Shown: one piece after another, positions 2,595 to 15,465 of the stretch | Layout of the letters: each line of letters opens with the position of its first letter | Numbering within the stretch: position 1 is the first letter of the stretch | From: Nitrospirae bacterium CG2_30_53_67 | GTDB lineage: Bacteria > CG2-30-53-67 | DNA: 17,479 nucleotides | Direction: 5' to 3' | NCBI GenBank assembly: GCA_001873285.1 | Contig: MNYV01000112.1 | Span: 1 to 17,479, forward strand | Program-made: the position numbers and the translations under genes | The notes under the pieces: model-generated | Database searches by the model: none | Told to the model about the DNA's origin: nothing | What the model saw: only the letters and a program-made list of their open reading frames with translations

Positions 2595-2684
2595 TTTCCA
2601 CGTGAAATGAGGGTCAAAATGACTCCCGAGCCCTTTGAATCGGTCTGATCCGACCATTAAAAGGTCTGCTTTCGGGCTGCAGCC

Positions 2685-2954
2685 TCAGATGGATTCACGC
2701 AGTTCCTTGCCCGGCGAGAACTTAGCGACTTTTCTTGCTTTAATCTTGATCATCTCACCGGTCCTCGGATTTCTCCCGTCACGCGCCTTTCTCTTGGCCA
2801 CTGAAAAGGTGCCGAATCCCATGAGCGTCACCTTTTCACCCTTTTTAAGGGCCTTGGATATATTCGTGATCAGGGAATCCAGACTCTTCCCGGCTGAGGT
2901 CTTGCTGACATTCGCGTCGGCGGCCATCGCTTCAATCAATTCTGCTTTAGTCAT
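2685..2954 (-). CDS. hup: HU family DNA-binding protein
   Basis: This 89-residue protein begins MTKAELIEAMA and has the single-domain HU/IHF layout: an N-terminal helical dimer region, the GFGTF turn, a DNA-binding arm with RDGRNPRTG, and the C-terminal KVAKFSPGKEL segment. Proteins of this family bend DNA and compact the nucleoid. The sequence KVAKFSPGKELRE fits HU better than IHF. ATG at 2954 follows a strong GGGGGAGG Shine-Dalgarno and gives the usual length; upstream in-frame codons would overlap ntrC and do not look like the family. It has its own strong promoter and is likely monocistronic. A second, IHF-beta-like paralogue lies at 11670-11948. Confidence 0.95.
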   Translation of the reverse strand: MTKAELIEAMAADANVSKTSAGKSLDSLITNISKALKKGEKVTLMGFGTFSVAKRKARDGRNPRTGEMIKIKARKVAKFSPGKELRESI

Positions 2955-3033
2955 TTGTTCTCCTCCCCCTTGAAATTTAAAAAATATATTTTTAAGATGA
3001 ACATCACTTGCAAGGCGGTAAAAAATGCAGTAT

Positions 3034-3062
3034 AATATAACAACCCGCCATGAACTTGTCAA
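3034..3062 (-). promoter_or_regulatory. strong sigma70-type promoter of the HU gene
   Basis: The minus strand carries consensus TTGACA (3062-3057), a 17-bp spacer and TATATT (3039-3034). The predicted start near 3027 leaves a 5' untranslated region of about 70 nt. It lies within 30 nt of the ntrC stop codon. Confidence 0.8.
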
Positions 3063-3090
3063 GGGAAAACAGATTGCCATGCAGGGATGG

Positions 3091-4542
3091 TCATCCTCTG
3101 CCGCTCTTATGGTCTCTGATATGAATATCATATGCCTTGATCTTCTTGCGCAATGTGTTCCGGTTGATCCCGAGTATCCGTGAGGCCTTGATCTGGTTTC
3201 CCCCGACCTCTTTCAATACCATCTCAAGCATCGGCGTCTCAATGCGCTCCATCACCTGTTTGAGTATTCCTTCTGCATCGGCCTGAATCATCCGATGGAC
3301 AAACTCATGAAGGTTGTTCTGGATACAAAGATCGAAGCTCTTCCTCAGATCCTGCTCCGCGCCGGATGGATCCGGGATAAGAGATGGGAATGAATCCGGG
3401 GTCAGATTCTTGCCGCTGGTCATCACCAAAGCCCGTTTCACCATGTTTTCAAGTTCCCGGACGTTGCCGGGCCAGTCGTAATCAATCAGGCCATTCAAGG
3501 TATCCTCGGCGTATCCGGTCACCTGAGACCCCAGTTCCTTTCTCCCTCTCTCCATAAAAAACTTCAGCAGGAGCGGGATATCCTCTTTGTGTTCCCTGAG
3601 TGGAGGGATATGGATGGGGACCACGTTCAAACGGAAGAAGAGGTCATCACGGAAAAGCCCTTCCTTGACTCTTTTCTCAAGGTTGCTGTTTGTGGCTGCC
3701 AGGATTCTGACGTCCACGGGGATCGGACCGCTCCCTCCGACCCGCTCGATCTCCTTCTCCTGAAGAACACGGAGAAGTTTGGTCTGCAGATTTTTCTCTA
3801 AATCGCCGATTTCATCAAGGAAGATGGTCCCTCCGTGCGCCTGTTCAAACTTACCTGTTTTCTGCGCAACCGCTCCGGTAAAAGCCCCTTTCTCATGGCC
3901 GAAAAGTTCAGACTCGAGAAGATTTCCAGGGATGGCCGCAAGATTCACGGGGATGAACGGCTTTCCGAAACGGCGGCTGTTATAATGAAGCGCCCTGGCA
4001 ATCACTTCCTTGCCTGTGCCGCTTTCTCCGGTCAGCAGGACCGTGACATCCCGTTCGGCAATCCGTCCGATGGTCTTGAAGATCTCCTGCATCTTCGCGC
4101 TCTCCCCTACCACGGTTACGGACTCGAATTTTTCACGAATCTCTTCTTTCAGGACCTGCAATTCATCATTCAACTCAAGGACCCGCCATGCCTTTGAAAC
4201 GATGATGTTTAATGCCTCCATATCGAAGGGCTTGGTCAGGTAATCAAAGGCGCCCTGCTTCATGGCCTCAATGGCGTTCTGCATGGTCGCCTGGGCCGTC
4301 ATGACGATGGCGAGTGATTTCGCATCCCTCCGGCGGATCTCCTTGAGGCATTCCAGTCCGCTCATGCCGGGCATCAGGATGTCCAGGATCACGAGGGGGA
4401 ATTTCTCCTTGTCCAGCCGCTTCATCCCCTCCTCTGCATTCGATGAAACGTCGGCCTGGTATCCTTCCTTTTCCAGGGCCTTTTTGATCACCCAGCGCAT
4501 GCTTTCATCATCGTCGATCACCAGAATCTTTTTTTCAATCAT
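3091..4542 (-). CDS. ntrC: NtrC-type sigma54-dependent response regulator
   Basis: This 483-residue protein has three domains in order. The N-terminal receiver domain carries acidic residues DDD at 10-12 and phospho-acceptor Asp54 in ILDILMPGM. The central AAA+ domain has Walker A GESGTGKE at 172-179, the sigma54-contact loop GAFTGA at 219-224 and Walker B GGTIFLDE at 237-244. The C-terminal Fis-type helix-turn-helix is at about 449-473. Such proteins, when phosphorylated, use ATP hydrolysis to open sigma54 promoters, classically for nitrogen assimilation. The gene starts 51 nt after the ntrB stop in the dusB-ntrB-ntrC operon. The start is preceded by GAAAGG. The nitrogen role is inferred from operon order and domain similarity; another NtrC-family signal is possible. 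Confidence 0.92.
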   Translation of the reverse strand: MIEKKILVIDDDESMRWVIKKALEKEGYQADVSSNAEEGMKRLDKEKFPLVILDILMPGMSGLECLKEIRRRDAKSLAIVMTAQATMQNAIEAMKQGAFDYLTKPFDMEALNIIVSKAWRVLELNDELQVLKEEIREKFESVTVVGESAKMQEIFKTIGRIAERDVTVLLTGESGTGKEVIARALHYNSRRFGKPFIPVNLAAIPGNLLESELFGHEKGAFTGAVAQKTGKFEQAHGGTIFLDEIGDLEKNLQTKLLRVLQEKEIERVGGSGPIPVDVRILAATNSNLEKRVKEGLFRDDLFFRLNVVPIHIPPLREHKEDIPLLLKFFMERGRKELGSQVTGYAEDTLNGLIDYDWPGNVRELENMVKRALVMTSGKNLTPDSFPSLIPDPSGAEQDLRKSFDLCIQNNLHEFVHRMIQADAEGILKQVMERIETPMLEMVLKEVGGNQIKASRILGINRNTLRKKIKAYDIHIRDHKSGRG

Positions 4543-4593
4543 AAGCGCCTTTCTTTACCGCGTTCAGAGCAGATCCTGAAAGATCGGACCCGG

Positions 4594-5733
4594 TCACCCG
4601 TCCTTCATCGGGATGACGACCGGCAGACAGACATGGAAACACGTCCCCTTGCCCGGAGCGCTCGTGACCTCAATCTTGCCTCCATGTTCCTCGATGATCC
4701 TATGGCTGATCGAAAGTCCCAGGCCCACGCCTCCGGCCTTGCGGGTATAAAAAGGATCGAATATCTTCTCGATCTCCTCCGGGCCGATCCCGCATCCTCT
4801 ATCCTCGATATCCACGGAGATCATCCCCTTTTTTTCATGCCCTCCATCCTGCATCCGGTATCCGGGGAGCATCCGTGTGGTGAGAGAAAGGACGCCCTCC
4901 CCTCCCATGGCATCGATCCCGTTTTTAAACAAGTTCAGAAAGACCTGGCTTAAGGGGTCAGGGTCCGCCTTGATAAGGGGGAGACTCGGATCAAAGCGCC
5001 GGACAATACCGACCTTTCCGGATGGGGATTCCATCTGAACCAGGGATGCGACCCGTTCCAGGACCTGATGGAGATTCGTGGGACGAAGCCTTAACTCAGT
5101 CGGTCTTGAAAAATCGAGCAGTCCCTGTACGATCTTATTCAATCGATCCGCCTCCCGGATGATCACATCCGTGTACTCCTGCAGGAGATGTCCTTCACCC
5201 ATCTCTTTGCAAAGGAGCTGAGCGGCCCCCCGGATTCCGCCCAGAGGATTCTTGATCTCATGCGCCATGCCGGCGGCGAGGATGCCGAGAGAGGCCAGGC
5301 GTTCACCCTTTCGAAGGCGTTCTTCCAGTGACTTGACCTGTGAGAGGTCCCTGAAGACAATCACCACGCCGATCGACGCGCCCTTGTAATCGATCAGCGG
5401 AGACGTGGCCAATCCGATATCACGGCGATCGCCGAAATATCCGTGTATGGAAAAATTGGAGTCTGAATAACTCCTCCCCGTCAGGATGGTTTTCCTGGCC
5501 AGGGTATGGATTCCGGATTCCTCTTCGAAGATTTCCGAGAGCCTCTTTCCTTGAACGGATCCGGTCTGGATTCCCGTCATCTGCTCCGCGGTTGCGCTGA
5601 ATGTCGTGATACAAAAATCCTGGTCCACCACAACGATCCCGTCGATCAGACTGGAGAGGATATTGTCATAATACTCCTGAACCTGCCGTGCCGGACGGCT
5701 GAACCCGTCCGGTCTTTTCTCCTTTTTATTCAT
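4594..5733 (-). CDS. ntrB: NtrB-type PAS-domain sensor histidine kinase
   Basis: This 379-residue protein has no membrane segment, so it should be cytosolic. A PAS domain (about 20-130) is followed by the HisKA dimerisation domain with His158 in AAGMAHEIKNPLGG. The HATPase domain has an N box (QVFLNLFKNGIDAM), a G1 box (DIEDRGCGIG), an F box (FDPFYT) and a G2 box (GGVGLGLS). In nitrogen regulation NtrB phosphorylates NtrC and is controlled by PII proteins; no PII gene lies in this window. Its ATG overlaps the dusB stop by 4 nt (ATGA), with no good Shine-Dalgarno, so translation is probably coupled to dusB. The partner regulator lies just downstream. Confidence 0.92.
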   Translation of the reverse strand: MNKKEKRPDGFSRPARQVQEYYDNILSSLIDGIVVVDQDFCITTFSATAEQMTGIQTGSVQGKRLSEIFEEESGIHTLARKTILTGRSYSDSNFSIHGYFGDRRDIGLATSPLIDYKGASIGVVIVFRDLSQVKSLEERLRKGERLASLGILAAGMAHEIKNPLGGIRGAAQLLCKEMGEGHLLQEYTDVIIREADRLNKIVQGLLDFSRPTELRLRPTNLHQVLERVASLVQMESPSGKVGIVRRFDPSLPLIKADPDPLSQVFLNLFKNGIDAMGGEGVLSLTTRMLPGYRMQDGGHEKKGMISVDIEDRGCGIGPEEIEKIFDPFYTRKAGGVGLGLSISHRIIEEHGGKIEVTSAPGKGTCFHVCLPVVIPMKDG

Positions 5734-6722
5734 GGAGCGGCCCGATCAGCCCATATCCTATTCTTCACGGAATCAAAATATTCTTTAACCAGCCTGCGGA
5801 ATTCCTCATCATGTTCCACGCGATGGATCCGGTTCCGAAATTCGGCCGACCCGGGAAGTCCTCTTGAATACCAGCCCGCAAACTTTCTCATGTAGGGAAC
5901 GCCTTTTCCCCCTTTGAGTTCCACTTCCATTTTGAGATGCATGAGCAGGGTCTGTTTAATGGTTTCCGGATCAGGACGCGGGTCCGCCTTTCCGTATAGA
6001 AGGAGTGAACGCAGGCTGCTGAAGATCCATGGATTTCCCATGGCCGCACGCCCGATCATGATTCCGTCGCAATGGGTCTCCCTGAACATCCTCTCACCAT
6101 CCTCCGGGACCTTGATATCCCCGTTGCCTATCACCGGAATTTTCAAGGACGCCTTGACCTTCCGGATGATCTCCCAATCGGAACGGCCGCAGAACGCCTG
6201 GGATTTTGTCCTGGGGTGGAGGGTCAATGCCGCGGCGCCCGCATCCTCTGCGGCAAGGGCAAGATCCACGGCACACAGGCTCTCCTGGTCCCAGCCTGAA
6301 CGAGTCTTGACGGTCACCGGCAGATGGGTGGCATGAACCACGGCATGGATCACCTTCCATGCCTGACGGATGTCCCGCAGCAGGGCTGACCCGGCGCCTG
6401 AACGGATCACCTTCCTTACGGGACAGCCGATATTAATATCGATCAGATCAAAACCTTTCTCTGAAAGTATCGAAGCGGCGCGGGCCATCTCATCCGGATC
6501 CGCCCCGAAGATCTGCGCCGCAACCGGCCTTTCCTCATCATCGGTCATGATATGCCGTGCATTCAGGCCGGGATTCCGGGTCAGGGACGCGGATGAAATC
6601 ATCTCGGTAAAAACCAGATCTGCGCCGTTTCGTCTTGCTAAAAGACGAAAGGCAAGGTCACTCACCCCTGCTATCGGCGCCGCCGCCAACCCTAACCCCA
6701 GATCAAGATCTTTAATTTTCAT
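5730..6722 (-). CDS. dusB: tRNA-dihydrouridine synthase, DusB/NifR3 family
   Basis: This FMN-dependent enzyme reduces uridine to dihydrouridine in tRNA D loops. The 330-residue protein has the TIM-barrel start AAPIAGVSDLAFR, the active-site Cys100 in DINIGCPVRKV, and the flavin and phosphate-binding motifs VIGNGDI and IMIGRAAMGNPWIF. Length and motifs are normal for the family. It overlaps ntrB by 4 nt and heads dusB-ntrB-ntrC, the same order as nifR3-ntrB-ntrC known from alphaproteobacteria. No Shine-Dalgarno precedes the ATG, and the likely promoter places the transcription start almost at the start codon, so the message may be leaderless. Confidence 0.95.
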   Translation of the reverse strand: MKIKDLDLGLGLAAAPIAGVSDLAFRLLARRNGADLVFTEMISSASLTRNPGLNARHIMTDDEERPVAAQIFGADPDEMARAASILSEKGFDLIDINIGCPVRKVIRSGAGSALLRDIRQAWKVIHAVVHATHLPVTVKTRSGWDQESLCAVDLALAAEDAGAAALTLHPRTKSQAFCGRSDWEIIRKVKASLKIPVIGNGDIKVPEDGERMFRETHCDGIMIGRAAMGNPWIFSSLRSLLLYGKADPRPDPETIKQTLLMHLKMEVELKGGKGVPYMRKFAGWYSRGLPGSAEFRNRIHRVEHDEEFRRLVKEYFDSVKNRIWADRAAP

Positions 6723-6729
6723 TTTCGAT

Positions 6730-6759
6730 AGTGTACGTTGAAAATGCGCTCCCTGTCAA
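6730..6759 (-). promoter_or_regulatory. promoter of dusB-ntrB-ntrC, overlapping the tsaD stop
   Basis: The minus strand carries TTGACA (6759-6754), an 18-bp spacer and TACACT (6735-6730). The TGA stop of tsaD is inside the -35 element. The expected start, 6-8 nt after the -10 box, falls at about 6722-6724, at or within 2 nt of the dusB ATG. Confidence 0.6.
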
Positions 6760-7808
6760 CTCCTCGTATCCTCTGAGTCTGAAACATGCCCGAGGGAGAG
6801 GCCGGCTGATGCATTCAAGTCCAGACCGTCCTTATGGCCCATTTTGAAGGACTGGGCGGCAGCCGAGGCAATCATCGCCGCATTATCCGTGCAGAGAATC
6901 GGAGAGGGGACAAAAAACCCGGCGCCCCTCTTTTCCAACTCCTGTTTCAACCGTTCTCTTAGACGGCGGTTGGATGCCACACCACCGGAGAGGACCATGC
7001 GCTCAAATCCATACGTCTCAAGGGCCGTCATCGCCTTGTCAACCAGGACCTGAACCGCCGCCTCCTGAAAAGAGGCTGCGATGTCCGATAGGCGCTCCTG
7101 CAGCCCGGCGGCTTCCTCCCCTTCGGGGCCCCACCCGTTTTTTAAGAGAAAGTTTAAAACCGCGGTCTTAAGACCGCTGAAGCTGAAATCCAAGGACCCG
7201 GGAGAGAGCATGGATCTTGGAAATTCCACAAAATGGGGATTCCCTTTCTCGGCCAGGGCATCGAGGACCGGCCCGCCGGGGTAACCCAGTCCCATGATTT
7301 TAGCTGTCTTGTCGAATGCCTCGCCTACGGCATCATCCCTTGTTTTTCCCAAGAGGGTATAATCGCCGAATTCCCTGACATGGATCAGTTCGGTATGACC
7401 GCCGGAAACCACCAGGCTGAGAAAAGGATAGGGGACCTCGGCCTCGAGAGAGACGGCATGGATGTGACCCTGGATGTGGTTCACGCCGACCAAGGGGATC
7501 CCGCAGGCAAAGGCCATGGCCTTTGCAAAAGAGAGCCCCACCAACAGGGCGCCCACCAGACCGGGCCCGTAGGTTACCCCGATCAGGTCGATTTGATTCA
7601 GCTTGGCGCCGGACTCTTCAAGAGCAAGGTCCACCACCTGCGAGATCTGTTCCACATGATGTCTGGACGCGATTTCCGGGACCACGCCGCCATATTTTCC
7701 GTGTATCTCCGTCTGTGAGGCGATGATGTTGGACCGGATCTTCCTTCCATCCTCGACCACGGCTGCCGAGGTCTCATCGCAGGATGTCTCTATACCGAGG
7801 CAAAGCAT
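6756..7808 (-). CDS. tsaD: tRNA N6-adenosine threonylcarbamoyltransferase TsaD
   Basis: TsaD transfers the threonylcarbamoyl group onto A37 of ANN-decoding tRNAs (t6A). The 350-residue protein starts MLCLGIETSCDETS, has the metal-binding HIQGH motif (His111 and His115), GGHTEL, and the C-terminal CTDNAAMIA motif, all typical of the ASKHA-fold Kae1/TsaD family. ATG at 7808 was chosen because the family starts with this motif and GAAAGG lies 9 nt upstream. An in-frame GTG at 7832 would overlap the preceding gene. It is the last gene of murJ-yibQ-tsaD, 13 nt after yibQ. The partner genes tsaB, tsaE and tsaC are not in the window. Confidence 0.96.
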   Translation of the reverse strand: MLCLGIETSCDETSAAVVEDGRKIRSNIIASQTEIHGKYGGVVPEIASRHHVEQISQVVDLALEESGAKLNQIDLIGVTYGPGLVGALLVGLSFAKAMAFACGIPLVGVNHIQGHIHAVSLEAEVPYPFLSLVVSGGHTELIHVREFGDYTLLGKTRDDAVGEAFDKTAKIMGLGYPGGPVLDALAEKGNPHFVEFPRSMLSPGSLDFSFSGLKTAVLNFLLKNGWGPEGEEAAGLQERLSDIAASFQEAAVQVLVDKAMTALETYGFERMVLSGGVASNRRLRERLKQELEKRGAGFFVPSPILCTDNAAMIASAAAQSFKMGHKDGLDLNASAGLSLGHVSDSEDTRS

Positions 7809-7821
7809 CTGATGAACCCTT

Positions 7822-9048
7822 TCAGGAAACACCGATCAGTTCGGAGACCGGCACGATTTCGACTCCCTGAGAACGGAACTTTTCCATGGAATCCTTCAGC
7901 GCCTTGATGGTGCTCTCCTTGGGATGACAAATGGCAATGGCATAACCCCTGCGTTTAGCCAGCCGGATCAACTGGTCGATCTGTTGGATGACCGATTCTT
8001 CATGATCAAGATTATCGAGGAAGATGTCCCGCCTGCCGGACTTGACGCCGAGACGCAGAGATTCATCATAGGCCGTGGAATTCTTTACGGTCAGACTGTC
8101 TATAAAGAAGAGGTTCCTTTTTTTGAGTTCTTCAAGCACCACGGACATGCGTCCACGATCCTGGGTGAATCGGGATCCCATATGGTTATTCACCCCGGAA
8201 AGATAGGGGACCTCTTGGATCAGTTCACCCACACGTCTCCTGATTTCTTCGGGGTCCATGCTGACCGTAAGCGATCGGTCTCCGGGATTCTTCCGGGGAT
8301 AATTCAAAGGCTCCATGGGAATATGAAGCATGATCTCTCTTTTTTTTTCATGGATCAAGCCGGCGGCATCCAAGGAATGTTGCAGCCCCGGGATGATCGA
8401 GAAGGTGATCGGCTGGTCCAGGGATAACAGCATCTTGACCGGCACAAGGCTGAGGCCGATATCATCAACGATAATGGCCACCCTGAAAGGCGCCGGAGAG
8501 GGAGAGGGTTGGAAGACAGCCTCTCCCTGAGGAATCAGGACTACCTGGCGGATCACCCGTTCCCGCATCCTAAGACTCAGGGTTGTGCGTTCCTCCCCGC
8601 CGGATATCTCCTTCCGGATCAGCATGGTGGCCCCCGGCAGGCTTCCGGCCGCAAGATCCAATGCTCTTTCCAGCTCGGATATTTTATCTTTTACAGTGAT
8701 CCGGACTTCGTAACGTTTGAAAATAAATGTCCCGCCGCCCAGGCCTTCCGGATGCTGCCGGATCATGATGAACTGGGAATCCATCCCCGCTTTTTCAAAA
8801 ACAGACCGGCAATGCTCGTCAAAAAGACGGCCGGCCTTGTCCAGTTCGGAAGCAGCCCTCCCGGGCTCCTCCTTTTCGGGCACGGGGTGGATCCATTGCT
8901 GGAGTCTTTCACGATAAATTTCAAGATAAAGAAGAACCGATATGGCTGAGACCAGAAGCCCCAGAAAAACCCACCAGGATATCCAGAATCGTCCACGATT
9001 TTTTTGAGATCTTCCGGCCGTTCTTTTTGAAGTTCTCTTTCTTTTCAT
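7822..9048 (-). CDS. yibQ: divergent polysaccharide deacetylase (YibQ/DUF610 family), membrane-anchored
   Basis: The protein is 408 residues. A basic N-terminus is followed by one transmembrane helix (about 21-42), then a linker and accessory region, then the divergent polysaccharide deacetylase domain (about 188-405). That domain has the IIVDDIG acidic pair (195-196), HIPMEP, NNHMGSRFT and IDS motifs of a NodB-like barrel. This predicts an inner-membrane-anchored periplasmic enzyme acting on cell-wall or other glycans; the substrate is not known. A C-terminal HPKES motif is also family-like. ATG at 9048 is preceded by an in-frame GTG at 9051, and either could be used. It starts 7 nt after the murJ stop without a clear Shine-Dalgarno, so translational coupling is likely. 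Confidence 0.87.
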   Translation of the reverse strand: MKRKRTSKRTAGRSQKNRGRFWISWWVFLGLLVSAISVLLYLEIYRERLQQWIHPVPEKEEPGRAASELDKAGRLFDEHCRSVFEKAGMDSQFIMIRQHPEGLGGGTFIFKRYEVRITVKDKISELERALDLAAGSLPGATMLIRKEISGGEERTTLSLRMRERVIRQVVLIPQGEAVFQPSPSPAPFRVAIIVDDIGLSLVPVKMLLSLDQPITFSIIPGLQHSLDAAGLIHEKKREIMLHIPMEPLNYPRKNPGDRSLTVSMDPEEIRRRVGELIQEVPYLSGVNNHMGSRFTQDRGRMSVVLEELKKRNLFFIDSLTVKNSTAYDESLRLGVKSGRRDIFLDNLDHEESVIQQIDQLIRLAKRRGYAIAICHPKESTIKALKDSMEKFRSQGVEIVPVSELIGVS

Positions 9049-9055
9049 CACAGGT

Positions 9056-10651
9056 TTATGAGACCTTACTCTTTCCTTCCGCAGGAATCTTGAATATCCA
9101 TTTCCGCATGACTTCGAACTCTTCCACCTTCAAGGCCGTACACAGGATGACATAGGATGCGACACCCATGAGGATTCCCCTTCCCAGGTAAAATATTTTT
9201 TTCAGGGCATGGCCGGATGATAACCACAGGTTTCCCTCCACGCCATGGTAGGCGCCGTAATAGGCAAATATCCCCATCACCAGCGAGGCCGAGAAGATTT
9301 TTATAACGGAACGGAAAATCATCCTCCCTTGAAGAGGTCCGATCCGCCTCCTTAAGATCCAGATCAGCACCGATACATTGAGCATGGAAGAAAGGGAATT
9401 GGCCAGGGCAAGTCCTGAATGCTGAAGATACCTCATCAAAAACAGACTCAGGAGAAGGTTGACCAGGAGCGAAAGGGCCGCTACTTTCATGGGAGTCCAG
9501 GTATCCTGCACGGCGTAGAAGGTCTGTGCGACCATGCGGACCTCGGCAAACGCCCAAAGCCCTAATGAATAAAACATCAAGGCGGATGCCGTCCCCTGAG
9601 TGGCAGCCGCCCCGAAACTCCCCCTTTGAAAGAGGGTATTCACGATCGGCGTCTTCAGGACCAGAAGCCCGATCATGGAGGGGATCATCAGAAAGAGGAC
9701 CATCCTCATGGCTTTTGAAAGGGTTTCCACCATCTCCGGGATATTTTTATTGGAGGCATGAACGGAGAGAGCGGGAAGCATGGCCGTGGCCGCAGAAAAC
9801 CCGAATACGGCGAGTGGAAACTGTACAAGCCGGTCTGCAAAAAAAAGATAGGTGATGCTTCCCGCGGGAAGAAAGGAAGCCAGCAGATTCCCTATGAAGA
9901 GATTAATCTGCAGGACGCTTTGGCCGATGACGCCGGGGACCATTAAGCTGAAAATCTTCCGCATCCCCTGATGGGCAAGATCGAGCCGGTACCTGAACCT
10001 GAACCCCTTTCTGATCAGGAAGGGGACCTGTACCGATATCTGCAGGAGTCCTCCCATCAGGACCCCGATGGCGAGACTCGTGATCGGGACCGGGAGATGC
10101 GGGCTCAGAAAGAGCGCGGATAAGATAATCATGAGGTTGAAAAAAGATGGGGCGATGGCCGGTGATCCGAAGTGGTTCAACGAGTTCAGGATCCCCATGG
10201 ATGCAGCGGAAAGCCCCACAAAAACCGCCACCGGAAAGATGATCCTGGTCAGGAGAACCGTAAGGTTGAACTGCATGGGGTCCTTGGTAAATCCGGGCGT
10301 AATGGCCTTGACCAGGCCTGGTGTGAAGATCATACCGAGGATCACAAACAATGATAGGATGGTGAAGATCACCGTGATCACGACATTCGCCAGATCCCAT
10401 GCATGCTCCCGTCCTTTCCGGTTCAGGGTCTCCGTAAAGACAGGGACGAAGGACGCATTCAGAGTCCCTTCTCCGAAGATCCTGATCAAATAATTCGGAA
10501 TCCGGAAGGCTGCGATATAGGCATCCGTCATCATGCCTGCGCCGAAAAGGCCGCTCATGACCATATCCCGGACGTACCCCATGATCCGGCTCATGAGCGT
10601 AGAGGCGCCGATGATCCCGGCCGCTCTGGCAATTCCCTTATGTCTTCTCAT
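9056..10651 (-). CDS. murJ: lipid II flippase MurJ (MviN)
   Basis: MurJ moves lipid II across the inner membrane for peptidoglycan synthesis. The 531-residue protein is highly hydrophobic with about 14 transmembrane helices, as expected for the MOP exporter superfamily. Key charged residues align with those of E. coli MurJ: SR at 21-22, RD at 28-29, Asp43, and Arg57 in the RIFGEG segment. The motifs DAYIAAFRIPN and ASFVPVF are family signatures. It begins at ATG 10651 with a modest GAAGAG ribosome site. It heads a tight operon with yibQ and tsaD and has its own upstream promoter. Confidence 0.96.
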   Translation of the reverse strand: MRRHKGIARAAGIIGASTLMSRIMGYVRDMVMSGLFGAGMMTDAYIAAFRIPNYLIRIFGEGTLNASFVPVFTETLNRKGREHAWDLANVVITVIFTILSLFVILGMIFTPGLVKAITPGFTKDPMQFNLTVLLTRIIFPVAVFVGLSAASMGILNSLNHFGSPAIAPSFFNLMIILSALFLSPHLPVPITSLAIGVLMGGLLQISVQVPFLIRKGFRFRYRLDLAHQGMRKIFSLMVPGVIGQSVLQINLFIGNLLASFLPAGSITYLFFADRLVQFPLAVFGFSAATAMLPALSVHASNKNIPEMVETLSKAMRMVLFLMIPSMIGLLVLKTPIVNTLFQRGSFGAAATQGTASALMFYSLGLWAFAEVRMVAQTFYAVQDTWTPMKVAALSLLVNLLLSLFLMRYLQHSGLALANSLSSMLNVSVLIWILRRRIGPLQGRMIFRSVIKIFSASLVMGIFAYYGAYHGVEGNLWLSSGHALKKIFYLGRGILMGVASYVILCTALKVEEFEVMRKWIFKIPAEGKSKVS

Positions 10652-12806: not shown

Positions 12807-13337
12807 CTATTTGCGTTTGTAGCGGCCCATGAGTTGGGCTTCAGCAAGCTGATGGCCTTTCATGGCCTCAAGAAGTTCCTTCTTTGCAGCGTTAGGAGAA
12901 AGGGAGAGGACGGTATCCAGCGCATAAAGCTTGAAGTAGTACCGGTGCGTGCCTCCGGGCGGGCAGGGCCCGCCGTACCCGACCTTCCGGAAATCCGTCA
13001 TTCCCTGAATCGTGCCATCCGGCAGTTTTTCATCCATCGGGAAGCCCTCTTCAAGACCCCGCTTGTCCGGCGGGATATTATAGACAACCCAGTGCACCCA
13101 GGTTCCCATGGGAGCGTCCGGGTCATCGCAGATCAACGCAAACGACCGGGTTCCTTTGGGCGGGTCCGACCAGGTCAGCCCAGGTGAGACATCCTCCCCG
13201 TCGCATGTGAATCCGGATGGGATCATCCCTTCTTGCCGGAACGCCGGACTTTTGATTTCAAATCCCATAGCATCCCCTCCTACATCCATGGTCAAGATAA
13301 AGAGCAGCATTCCTATGCAGGACGTACGCCCTCTCAT
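12807..13337 (-). CDS. exported PEBP/YbhB-like (Raf kinase inhibitor-like) protein
   Basis: This 176-residue protein has a hydrophobic N-terminal stretch (about 8-17) that looks like a signal peptide, followed by a PEBP domain. The domain has the ligand-pocket motifs DDPDAPMGTWVHWV and GGTHRYYF, and the GFTCDGEDVSPGLTW start that is typical of bacterial YbhB proteins. Bacterial members have no settled function. E. coli YbhB is cytosolic, so an exported form points to a periplasmic role. ATG at 13337 follows a strong GGGGAGG site. It heads a two-gene unit with the TlpA-like oxidoreductase, which is also periplasmic. Confidence 0.92.
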   Translation of the reverse strand: MRGRTSCIGMLLFILTMDVGGDAMGFEIKSPAFRQEGMIPSGFTCDGEDVSPGLTWSDPPKGTRSFALICDDPDAPMGTWVHWVVYNIPPDKRGLEEGFPMDEKLPDGTIQGMTDFRKVGYGGPCPPGGTHRYYFKLYALDTVLSLSPNAAKKELLEAMKGHQLAEAQLMGRYKRK

Positions 13338-13416: not shown

Positions 13417-15324
13417 CTATTGGATACCGATCATCTCTTGTAAGATCTGTTTGATACTCTTTTTCTTGCGCAGGTGGATCAGGCGGATTTCCCTCATCGC
13501 CTCAATATATTTCGGGTCTCTCTCCAGCGCCCGGGAGAACATCTGCTCTGACCGGTCGGTATCGTCCCTGACCTTGTACACGCATCCCAGATAGAAAAAC
13601 GGCCGGGCATCACGGGATGAGAGGTTCATGGCATAGTTAAAGGCGCTCTCCGCCAGATCCAACCGGTCCGGCTGTTCATCCGCGCCTTCCATGAATATCA
13701 GCCCCAGTTGGATATGATATTCGGTCTCTTTGGGATGGACCTGGATGGCTGAAATCAAGGCATTCTGAGCCCCTTCAAGGTCGCCCTGCCGGGAAAGGGC
13801 CATCCCCTTCTCGAAGAAATGCTCTGCCCGGGATATACTTTCATCTTTCGGCGGCTCTCTGAGACACGGATCCGAAGGGGCGGCTTTCAAGGTCTCCTTT
13901 TCTGTTTTTGATATATTCTGAAGGAGTTCCTGATAAACTTGGTTGATCCTCTGGAAGATTACCTTGATATAGTCGTTATATTTATCATCCAGCTTGTGAA
14001 AATAACGGTCCGGATGGTAGGTCTTGGCCATTTTCATGAAGCCCTGTTTGATCAGTTTCTTATCTTTTGTCTTTGAAATTTCAAGGATCTCGTAGGGGTT
14101 CTGTGACTGCACCTGGATATATTTCCTCAGGATGGACGATCTTTGGTCCTCATCCATCAAGGGCTCGGCGCCATGACCGGCCATGAGATCCACATCGTCT
14201 TCTGTCATCTCTTCTGCGCCTTTTTTATGGATGATCCGGCATAAAAAAAGCGCATAGAGGAACTTCCTGACCATAACCGATGGGAGCTGCGCCTGATGGA
14301 CGATCTCCTCCACCGAACGGCTTCCATCCACCAGAGAGAGGATCTTTTCTTCCTTTTCATTCAGTTGGATATTCTGAAAACGGAAACGGGGGTCGGAAGA
14401 GAGGACGAATACGGTATGAATCTCAGGGAAATGGCGTTCCAGCATCTCCGCCGTATAGGTCTTTTGCACTCCTCGGATGATGACCTGTGCAGGAGCCGCT
14501 TTCAGTGTGATATACTCATCATGATCCGTGGACGGGACAAAATCGTAATACCCGGAATTCCAGGTGAAGACGCTGTGAAGGATGTTGGTTAACTGCCTTT
14601 GCAAATACGTCTCCAGCGTGGCGGCATCTATCCTGCCCGATTCGAGCAGGAGCAAACCGAGACGTTTTCCCGTCTCTTTCATGGTCTGAGAGATTTCACT
14701 GTATTGCATAGGCGAGATTTTGTGATCGGATAGAAGGAGTTCTCCGAGGCGCTCCTCTTTCTGGTTGGAGACGGCAAAGGAGATATAACCATCCTTGAAA
14801 TAGATTGATTTCCGTATATTCCCTTTTTCCAGGTAGAGAATTCCGGTTCTGTTCTCACCGTATAGCGTGTGCAGGAGACGTAGAATGGTCCCGTCTTTTA
14901 ATTTTTTGAAGTGAAGCCGGGCCGTGTTGAGTCCTTCACCTGCATCGGCCCGATTCCCCGTCAGATCCTCGATGCGGGTAAAAAGATTCTGGACATTTAG
15001 AGGTTTTTCAAAATAACCGTCAGCGAGATATTCCTTGGAGGACTGCATTCGGTACTTGTGCCCTTTGTAGACGCCGGAGATGAGGAGGATCGGGGTTTCT
15101 TTGCCTTCCGGCATTTCCTTAATCTTCCTGCACAGGTCAAAACCGTGAAGTTTAGGAAGGAGCCCGTCCAGAAGAAGGATGTCCGGCCTTTCCCGGGTAA
15201 AGAGCTGAAAACCCTCCTCCCCGTCCCGTGCGGAAACCACCTCATAGCCGAGGGTCACGGCATATTCACTGAGGGCTTGAACACTCCCCTGATCATCATC
15301 AATAATTCCGATCTTGACTGTCAT
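13417..15324 (-). CDS. response regulator with DUF4388, J-domain and TPR repeats
   Basis: This 635-residue protein joins four recognisable parts. A receiver domain (about 4-120) has acidic DDD at 9-11, Asp53 as the phospho-acceptor and a conserved Lys in EKPL. A DUF4388/PATAN-like region (about 135-260) follows, then a winged-helix-like linker (about 320-370). A J-domain (about 409-475) has an intact HPD at 437-439, expected to stimulate a DnaK-type chaperone. C-terminal TPR repeats (about 498-610) have the HPKETEYHIQLG and DPKYIEAM patterns. No DNA-binding or enzymatic output domain was recognised. ATG at 15324 starts the receiver domain cleanly; in-frame ATGs at 15345 and 15357 are alternatives. 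The gene has its own promoter. DUF4388 proteins with such partners occur in deltaproteobacteria, but their role is not settled. Confidence 0.85.
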   Translation of the reverse strand: MTVKIGIIDDDQGSVQALSEYAVTLGYEVVSARDGEEGFQLFTRERPDILLLDGLLPKLHGFDLCRKIKEMPEGKETPILLISGVYKGHKYRMQSSKEYLADGYFEKPLNVQNLFTRIEDLTGNRADAGEGLNTARLHFKKLKDGTILRLLHTLYGENRTGILYLEKGNIRKSIYFKDGYISFAVSNQKEERLGELLLSDHKISPMQYSEISQTMKETGKRLGLLLLESGRIDAATLETYLQRQLTNILHSVFTWNSGYYDFVPSTDHDEYITLKAAPAQVIIRGVQKTYTAEMLERHFPEIHTVFVLSSDPRFRFQNIQLNEKEEKILSLVDGSRSVEEIVHQAQLPSVMVRKFLYALFLCRIIHKKGAEEMTEDDVDLMAGHGAEPLMDEDQRSSILRKYIQVQSQNPYEILEISKTKDKKLIKQGFMKMAKTYHPDRYFHKLDDKYNDYIKVIFQRINQVYQELLQNISKTEKETLKAAPSDPCLREPPKDESISRAEHFFEKGMALSRQGDLEGAQNALISAIQVHPKETEYHIQLGLIFMEGADEQPDRLDLAESAFNYAMNLSSRDARPFFYLGCVYKVRDDTDRSEQMFSRALERDPKYIEAMREIRLIHLRKKKSIKQILQEMIGIQ

Positions 15325-15435
15325 TTCGTCTCTTGCACCCCTCATTCGGATGAACATCCCCGGGCCATCGCGGTGATAGACGTTTGGAACGTTAAGAACA
15401 GAAGATCATGACCGGATGCGCTTCCTTGTAACTTT

Positions 15436-15465
15436 ATGATACTTCAGCAATAATATTCCTGTCAA
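15436..15465 (-). promoter_or_regulatory. sigma70-type promoter of the DUF4388/J-domain regulator
   Basis: The minus strand carries consensus TTGACA (15465-15460), an 18-bp spacer and TATCAT (15441-15436). The predicted start near 15429 leaves a leader of about 105 nt. No equally clear promoter was found for the divergent NUDIX gene. Confidence 0.7.

Follow-up and report, generated by a model that had tools for sequence, protein, structure and literature searches.

Introduction

What might a protein do that joins a response-regulator receiver to a J domain and TPR repeats, with a domain of unknown function, DUF4388, set between them? The question is raised by a gene of Nitrospirae bacterium CG2_30_53_67, carried on a stretch of 17,479 nucleotides (hereafter 'the window') that constitutes a whole contig (MNYV01000112.1; C112); the draft genome measures 2.36 Mb, and our phylum sample comprised eight genomes. 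An initial annotation proposed a phospho-controlled co-chaperone. Its description of the domains and of the two active-site motifs is correct, but the docking role of DUF4388 was missed, and it is this domain—together with an insertion within it—that suggests where the fusion protein acts. The reading that we tentatively prefer, while granting that it may well be wrong, is that of a phospho-gated adaptor or co-chaperone that would place DnaK at a motor of the pilus type or at some related machine.

The Gene and Its Domains

The open reading frame is real. Its receiver, DUF4388, J domain, and TPRs are each matched by at least one Pfam model above the curated cut-off (Table 1); the receiver and the J domain, on which the initial proposal depends, are thus both present. 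The start codon given here (ATG at 15324) agrees with that of an ortholog in a sister species (L019) better than does an in-frame ATG at 15357. The gene was previously said to have its own promoter and no cognate kinase beside it. The promoter is plausible, as a consensus match only, and no histidine kinase adjoins the gene; an NtrB/NtrC-like pair at 3091–5733 of the window lies about 8 kb away, and in the neighbourhoods of distant relatives that were inspected, no pattern of adjacent kinase genes emerged. A YbhB/PEBP-like gene (window 12807–13337) lies between the fusion gene and a TlpA-like gene and is absent from that place in the sister genome (L093). The predicted model of the fusion protein (AlphaFold2 without alignment) has a mean pLDDT of 39.8 and a pTM of 0.24, values too low for the model to be informative.

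Table 1. Features of the fusion gene and its upstream region in the window.
Feature	Residues	Position	Strand	Basis
Promoter-like site		15436..15465	−	TTGACA-18-TATCAT; sigma-70-like, 11/12 matches; consensus match only
Whole fusion gene	635 aa	13417..15324	−	ATG at 15324; coordinates include stop codon
Receiver domain	1–120	14965..15324	−	Pfam PF00072
Codon of phospho-acceptor Asp53	53	15166..15168	−	Sequence
DUF4388 (= PATAN) domain	142–287	14464..14901	−	Pfam PF14332, E 5.4e-18
MshEN_N-like insertion	192–244	14593..14751	−	Two 24-residue motifs, 5-residue spacer; NCBIfam, PDB, hhalign
Winged-helix-like stretch after DUF4388	~318–378	14191..14373	−	Alignment to matching part of cyanobacterial PATAN proteins
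J domain	409–469	13918..14100	−	Pfam PF00226, E 1.8e-8, 34.8 bits (cut-off 27.8)
HPD motif	437–439	14008..14016	−	Sequence
TPR repeats	505–606	13507..13812	−	Pfam TPR families above cut-off (TPR_1, TPR_2, TPR_14)

The Response_reg match covers residues 6–118 (E 1.7e-17), and the residues expected of a receiver are complete: the acid pair D9/D10, the phospho-acceptor D53 (reported intact in the initial annotation, and found so), S83, and K107. With a receiver profile, acid pair, phospho-Asp, Ser/Thr, and Lys in place, the protein ranks by sequence as a response regulator. The same holds farther along the chain, where a J domain above its curated cut-off and the HPD motif, likewise intact as first described, make it by sequence a J protein of the class C type; a profile of the family matches the J domain of Escherichia coli DnaJ (5nro) at E 2.6e-17.

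DUF4388 Is PATAN

That the protein has 'no recognisable output', as was first held, is incorrect: DUF4388 is PATAN, a known docking domain (PF14332). When the DUF4388-winged-helix region of the family was compared with cyanobacterial PATAN, hhalign returned a probability of 97.9% (E 3.5e-13) over 220 columns. PF14332 matches six proteins in one Nostocales genome, five of which have the domain at the N-terminus and a receiver-like part at the C-terminus, which is the PATAN layout (Pfam was run on one of them). Judged by these profiles, DUF4388 and the winged-helix-like stretch that follows it are homologous over their full length to the PATAN of cyanobacteria, and the presence of the domain, an alpha-helical insertion, and the following winged-helix-like part places the window protein among PATAN proteins. 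Cyanobacterial PATAN response regulators (PatA, PixG, PixE, TaxP2, LsiR) likewise combine a receiver with PATAN/DUF4388 and the winged-helix-like stretch, aligned over 220 columns; unlike the window protein, the Nostocales regulators examined have their receiver at the C-terminus, are devoid of J domain and TPRs, and have an insertion without RLG motifs. In Synechocystis, PATAN regulators have the pilus motor PilB as a binding partner (PMC10519157; PMC12288463); outside the cyanobacteria, no PATAN domain is known to bind PilB.

The stretch after DUF4388 weakly resembles winged-helix proteins, for example an ArsR-family regulator (2kko, E 0.049), and one could therefore imagine a transcription regulator that uses it; however, no DNA-binding family of Pfam matches there, the same stretch occurs in PATAN proteins that act on motors, and we hold this function to be highly improbable.

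An MshEN_N-like Insertion

The window's DUF4388 stretch (14418–14919), searched alone, gave ten PDB matches, all to MshE, PilB, or PilF and all over the insertion (5htl among them), and the DUF4388-winged-helix family profile found PilF at E 2.6e-17 and 5htl at E 8.4e-10. In the reverse direction, a profile built solely from six PilB/MshE-type N-termini of the genus of the window's genome matched the window protein at E 3e-4 and nearly every DUF4388 protein fetched, the best at E 9e-14. With hhalign, the comparison with PilB N-termini reached 98.3%, and a negative control with the J domain 0.6%. PF05157, a model of MshEN_C rather than of MshEN_N, accordingly gave no match to the insertion. The helical insertion of DUF4388 has the MshEN_N layout of 24+5+24 residues, and on these alignments it is homologous to this c-di-GMP-binding module of PilB and MshE. 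It shares the layout and the RLG motifs with the MshEN of MshE, PilB, and PilF, but is embedded in DUF4388, whereas theirs stands at the start of an ATPase, and it differs from theirs at three of the six key residues of motif I.

Does the insertion bind c-di-GMP? The NCBIfam model of the c-di-GMP motif (NF053729) aligns at 53 of 53 positions and scores 33.6 bits in the window protein, just below its cut-off of 38, which several relatives and a DUF4388-J-TPR paralog pass. Motif II keeps all key residues; motif I keeps RLG, with the replacements L to Y, L to S, and Q to M, so that the set of ligand residues over the two motifs is incomplete. The glutamine of motif I is absent from all 21 aligned J-family members. 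Because degenerate MshEN domains can lose binding, as in the GSPII-A domain of PilF (PMC12002112), the insertion of the window protein is only a candidate c-di-GMP site. The suggestion that c-di-GMP is the main input, received through the insertion, with the receiver as a second one, draws on the homology, the complete motif II, and the thirteen GGDEF matches in the genome; set against the altered motif I, the missing glutamine, the score below the cut-off, and the PilF precedent, it seems to us very unlikely. Scarcely more probable, and still quite unlikely, is a single polypeptide that would integrate a phosphoryl signal with c-di-GMP and load DnaK onto the motor of a secretion system or pilus, with PATAN/DUF4388 as a motor-docking domain built around the motors' own c-di-GMP module.

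The motif also exceeds the NCBIfam cut-off in other proteins of the genome. An 870-residue DUF4388-TPR-DUF4388-J-TPR paralog (L091, 8750–11362 of G000:C177) has it in its first DUF4388 at 55.8 bits and is, as far as the motif can indicate, a better candidate for ligand binding than the window protein. A DUF4388 protein with a T2SSG-like C-terminal match (L089, 5609–6859 of G000:C3; 50.5 bits) is encoded near a gene for a PilT-like ATPase, which also carries the motif.

A connection between PATAN and MshEN was not found in the open-access papers examined that name both. Wang et al. noted that MshEN occurs fused to receivers and that Bd2402 binds c-di-GMP, and the link may be partly anticipated in the supplementary tables of that work.

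Conservation and Distribution

The ortholog in the sister species is 77% identical and, as in the window, has a TlpA-like gene on one side and a NUDIX-like gene on the other. By codon comparison, dN/dS is 0.11 in the receiver, 0.08 in DUF4388, 0.10 in the J domain, and 0.15 in the TPRs, within a range of 0.08–0.18 over all domains that denotes purifying selection; the amino acid identity of the linkers is lower than that of the domains. All four domains are thus maintained. Searches with the fusion protein gave no close match in the family's four remaining genomes (three yielded long matches to the DUF4388-J-TPR paralog), matches to the receiver region only in a collection of genome contigs, and no matches among plasmids.

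A survey of 386 relatives inside and outside the phylum, with strong matches in sixteen genomes, to which two further phylum searches were added, provided fifty non-redundant proteins with both DUF4388 and a J domain. Thirty-one have a receiver, and twenty-three the exact order receiver-DUF4388-winged helix-J-TPR. In five distant proteins (L051, L053, L056, L057, and L064), receiver, DUF4388, and J domain all exceed the Pfam cut-offs; TPR models do so in L051, L056, and L057, whereas the TPRs of L053 are sub-threshold and L064 has no TPR match. In a further protein (L050), the J match is sub-threshold and the motif reads HPV. One phylum has three or more copies in seven of seven genomes. The combination of receiver, PATAN, J domain, and TPRs is therefore not unique but recurs in several bacterial phyla, and this recurrence, like the syntenic ortholog under purifying selection, speaks against a product of chance. 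No description of this family was found in the open-access literature searched.

On a tree of the DUF4388-J part, the receiver must have been gained or lost five times or more; DUF4388-J-TPR accordingly looks like a core to which the receiver has been an intermittent addition. Receiver-less proteins (the paralog on G000:C177, L055, L061, and others) have the same core order, DUF4388-winged helix-J-TPR; some possess a second DUF4388 and a c-di-GMP motif above the cut-off, as in L091. In another genome, three receiver-bearing genes of the fusion type form a tandem array, and their receivers and J motifs have decayed to varying extents (L102, 3498–9984 of G321:C10).

The HPD motif is intact in only twenty-four of the fifty members (11/31 with a receiver, 13/19 without). 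Going by this motif, a chaperone role does not extend to the family as a whole, and DnaK stimulation by the J domain is not to be taken for granted, about half of the members having lost HPD. Joint loss of receiver and J motifs gave a raw Fisher P of 0.023, which is not evidence, there being at most two phylogenetically independent pairs. The J domain could accordingly be a relic or scaffold, and the protein a PATAN-TPR signalling platform that makes no use of DnaK, the more so as the twenty-six members without HPD include proteins of closely similar architecture (L050, L062, L064, and L065). Yet the window protein and its ortholog retain both HPD and a basic helix II, the J domain is under selection as noted above, and an intact group in another phylum keeps HPD and the receiver residues together; we consider a relic unlikely.

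Motor and Chaperone Context

The genome carries a pilB-pilT-pilC-pilSR cluster (PilB assigned by NCBIfam, the others read by eye) and two DnaK genes. One DUF4388 gene with a weak receiver-like match lies 43 bp from a gene for a PilB-like ATPase, on the same strand (L088, 4858–8280 of G000:C104), the pair being situated inside an XrtA-type exopolysaccharide cluster. The probability that a single such direct adjacency in the genome arises by chance is about 0.08, and a pilus link drawn from it is only suggestive. No pilus genes were seen beside the fusion gene or beside the distant relatives inspected.

In cyanobacteria, a DnaK1/DnaJ3/GrpE system, with TPRs in DnaJ3, works on PilB/Hfq (PMC9239167; PMC12288463). 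Compared by domain make-up, DnaJ3 resembles the window protein in pairing a J domain with TPRs; no receiver or PATAN is reported for DnaJ3, whereas the window protein has all of these in one chain. A separate small J-TPR protein of 222 aa, encoded behind a TPR-only protein (L003, 514–2157 of G000:C81) and with a counterpart in the sister genome (L047), also resembles DnaJ3 in make-up.

An adaptor at a pilus-type motor is preferred because cyanobacterial PATAN regulators and the DnaK1/TPR-DnaJ3 pair both bind PilB, and the union of PATAN and J-TPR in one chain suggests that both act together at one site. According to this proposal, a kinase would phosphorylate Asp53, and the phosphorylated receiver would alter how far PATAN is exposed; PATAN would dock on a PilB/GspE-type motor ATPase or related machine; there, the J domain would recruit DnaK and stimulate its ATPase, and the TPRs might hold a client or a third partner. 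Its basis is the domains, the intact receiver and HPD residues, the PATAN and MshEN_N homologies, and purifying selection; phosphorylation, motor docking, DnaK recruitment, and gating are inferred. The pil cluster, the two DnaK genes, and the DUF4388/PilB-like pair of the genome also speak for it. Arguing against it are the want of adjoining pilus genes, the chance of the adjacency, the HPD count, the restriction of known PilB binding to cyanobacteria, and the poor quality of the predicted model.

The main rival is a regulated co-chaperone of general quality control without a tie to pili, a class C-type J protein that the receiver would switch under stress, with PATAN as a generic docking part. 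Trigger factor, clpX, and lon genes stand upstream of the receiver-DUF4388-J gene of L101, on the same strand (2626–10306 of G294:C202), a neighbourhood that is possibly a quality-control operon; a canonical dnaJ lies beside L094 and a J protein gene beside L095. Such genes, however, occur in only three of fourteen distant neighbourhoods and none adjoins the window gene, the J motif is broken in both L101 (HPE) and L094 (HPV), and the PATAN partners in the published work examined belong to the pilus motor. We therefore rate a general quality-control role as somewhat doubtful and behind the motor adaptor.

Significance

If the motor adaptor is correct, the fusion protein would physically and directly couple two-component signalling to the recruitment of Hsp70, in a family that extends across several phyla. 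Recognition of the DUF4388/PATAN insertion as a homologue of MshEN_N gives a large family of unknown function a testable one, because some DUF4388 proteins keep the c-di-GMP motif above the curated cut-off. Since PilB itself carries the same module, the homology is perhaps also a clue to the association of PATAN proteins with PilB.
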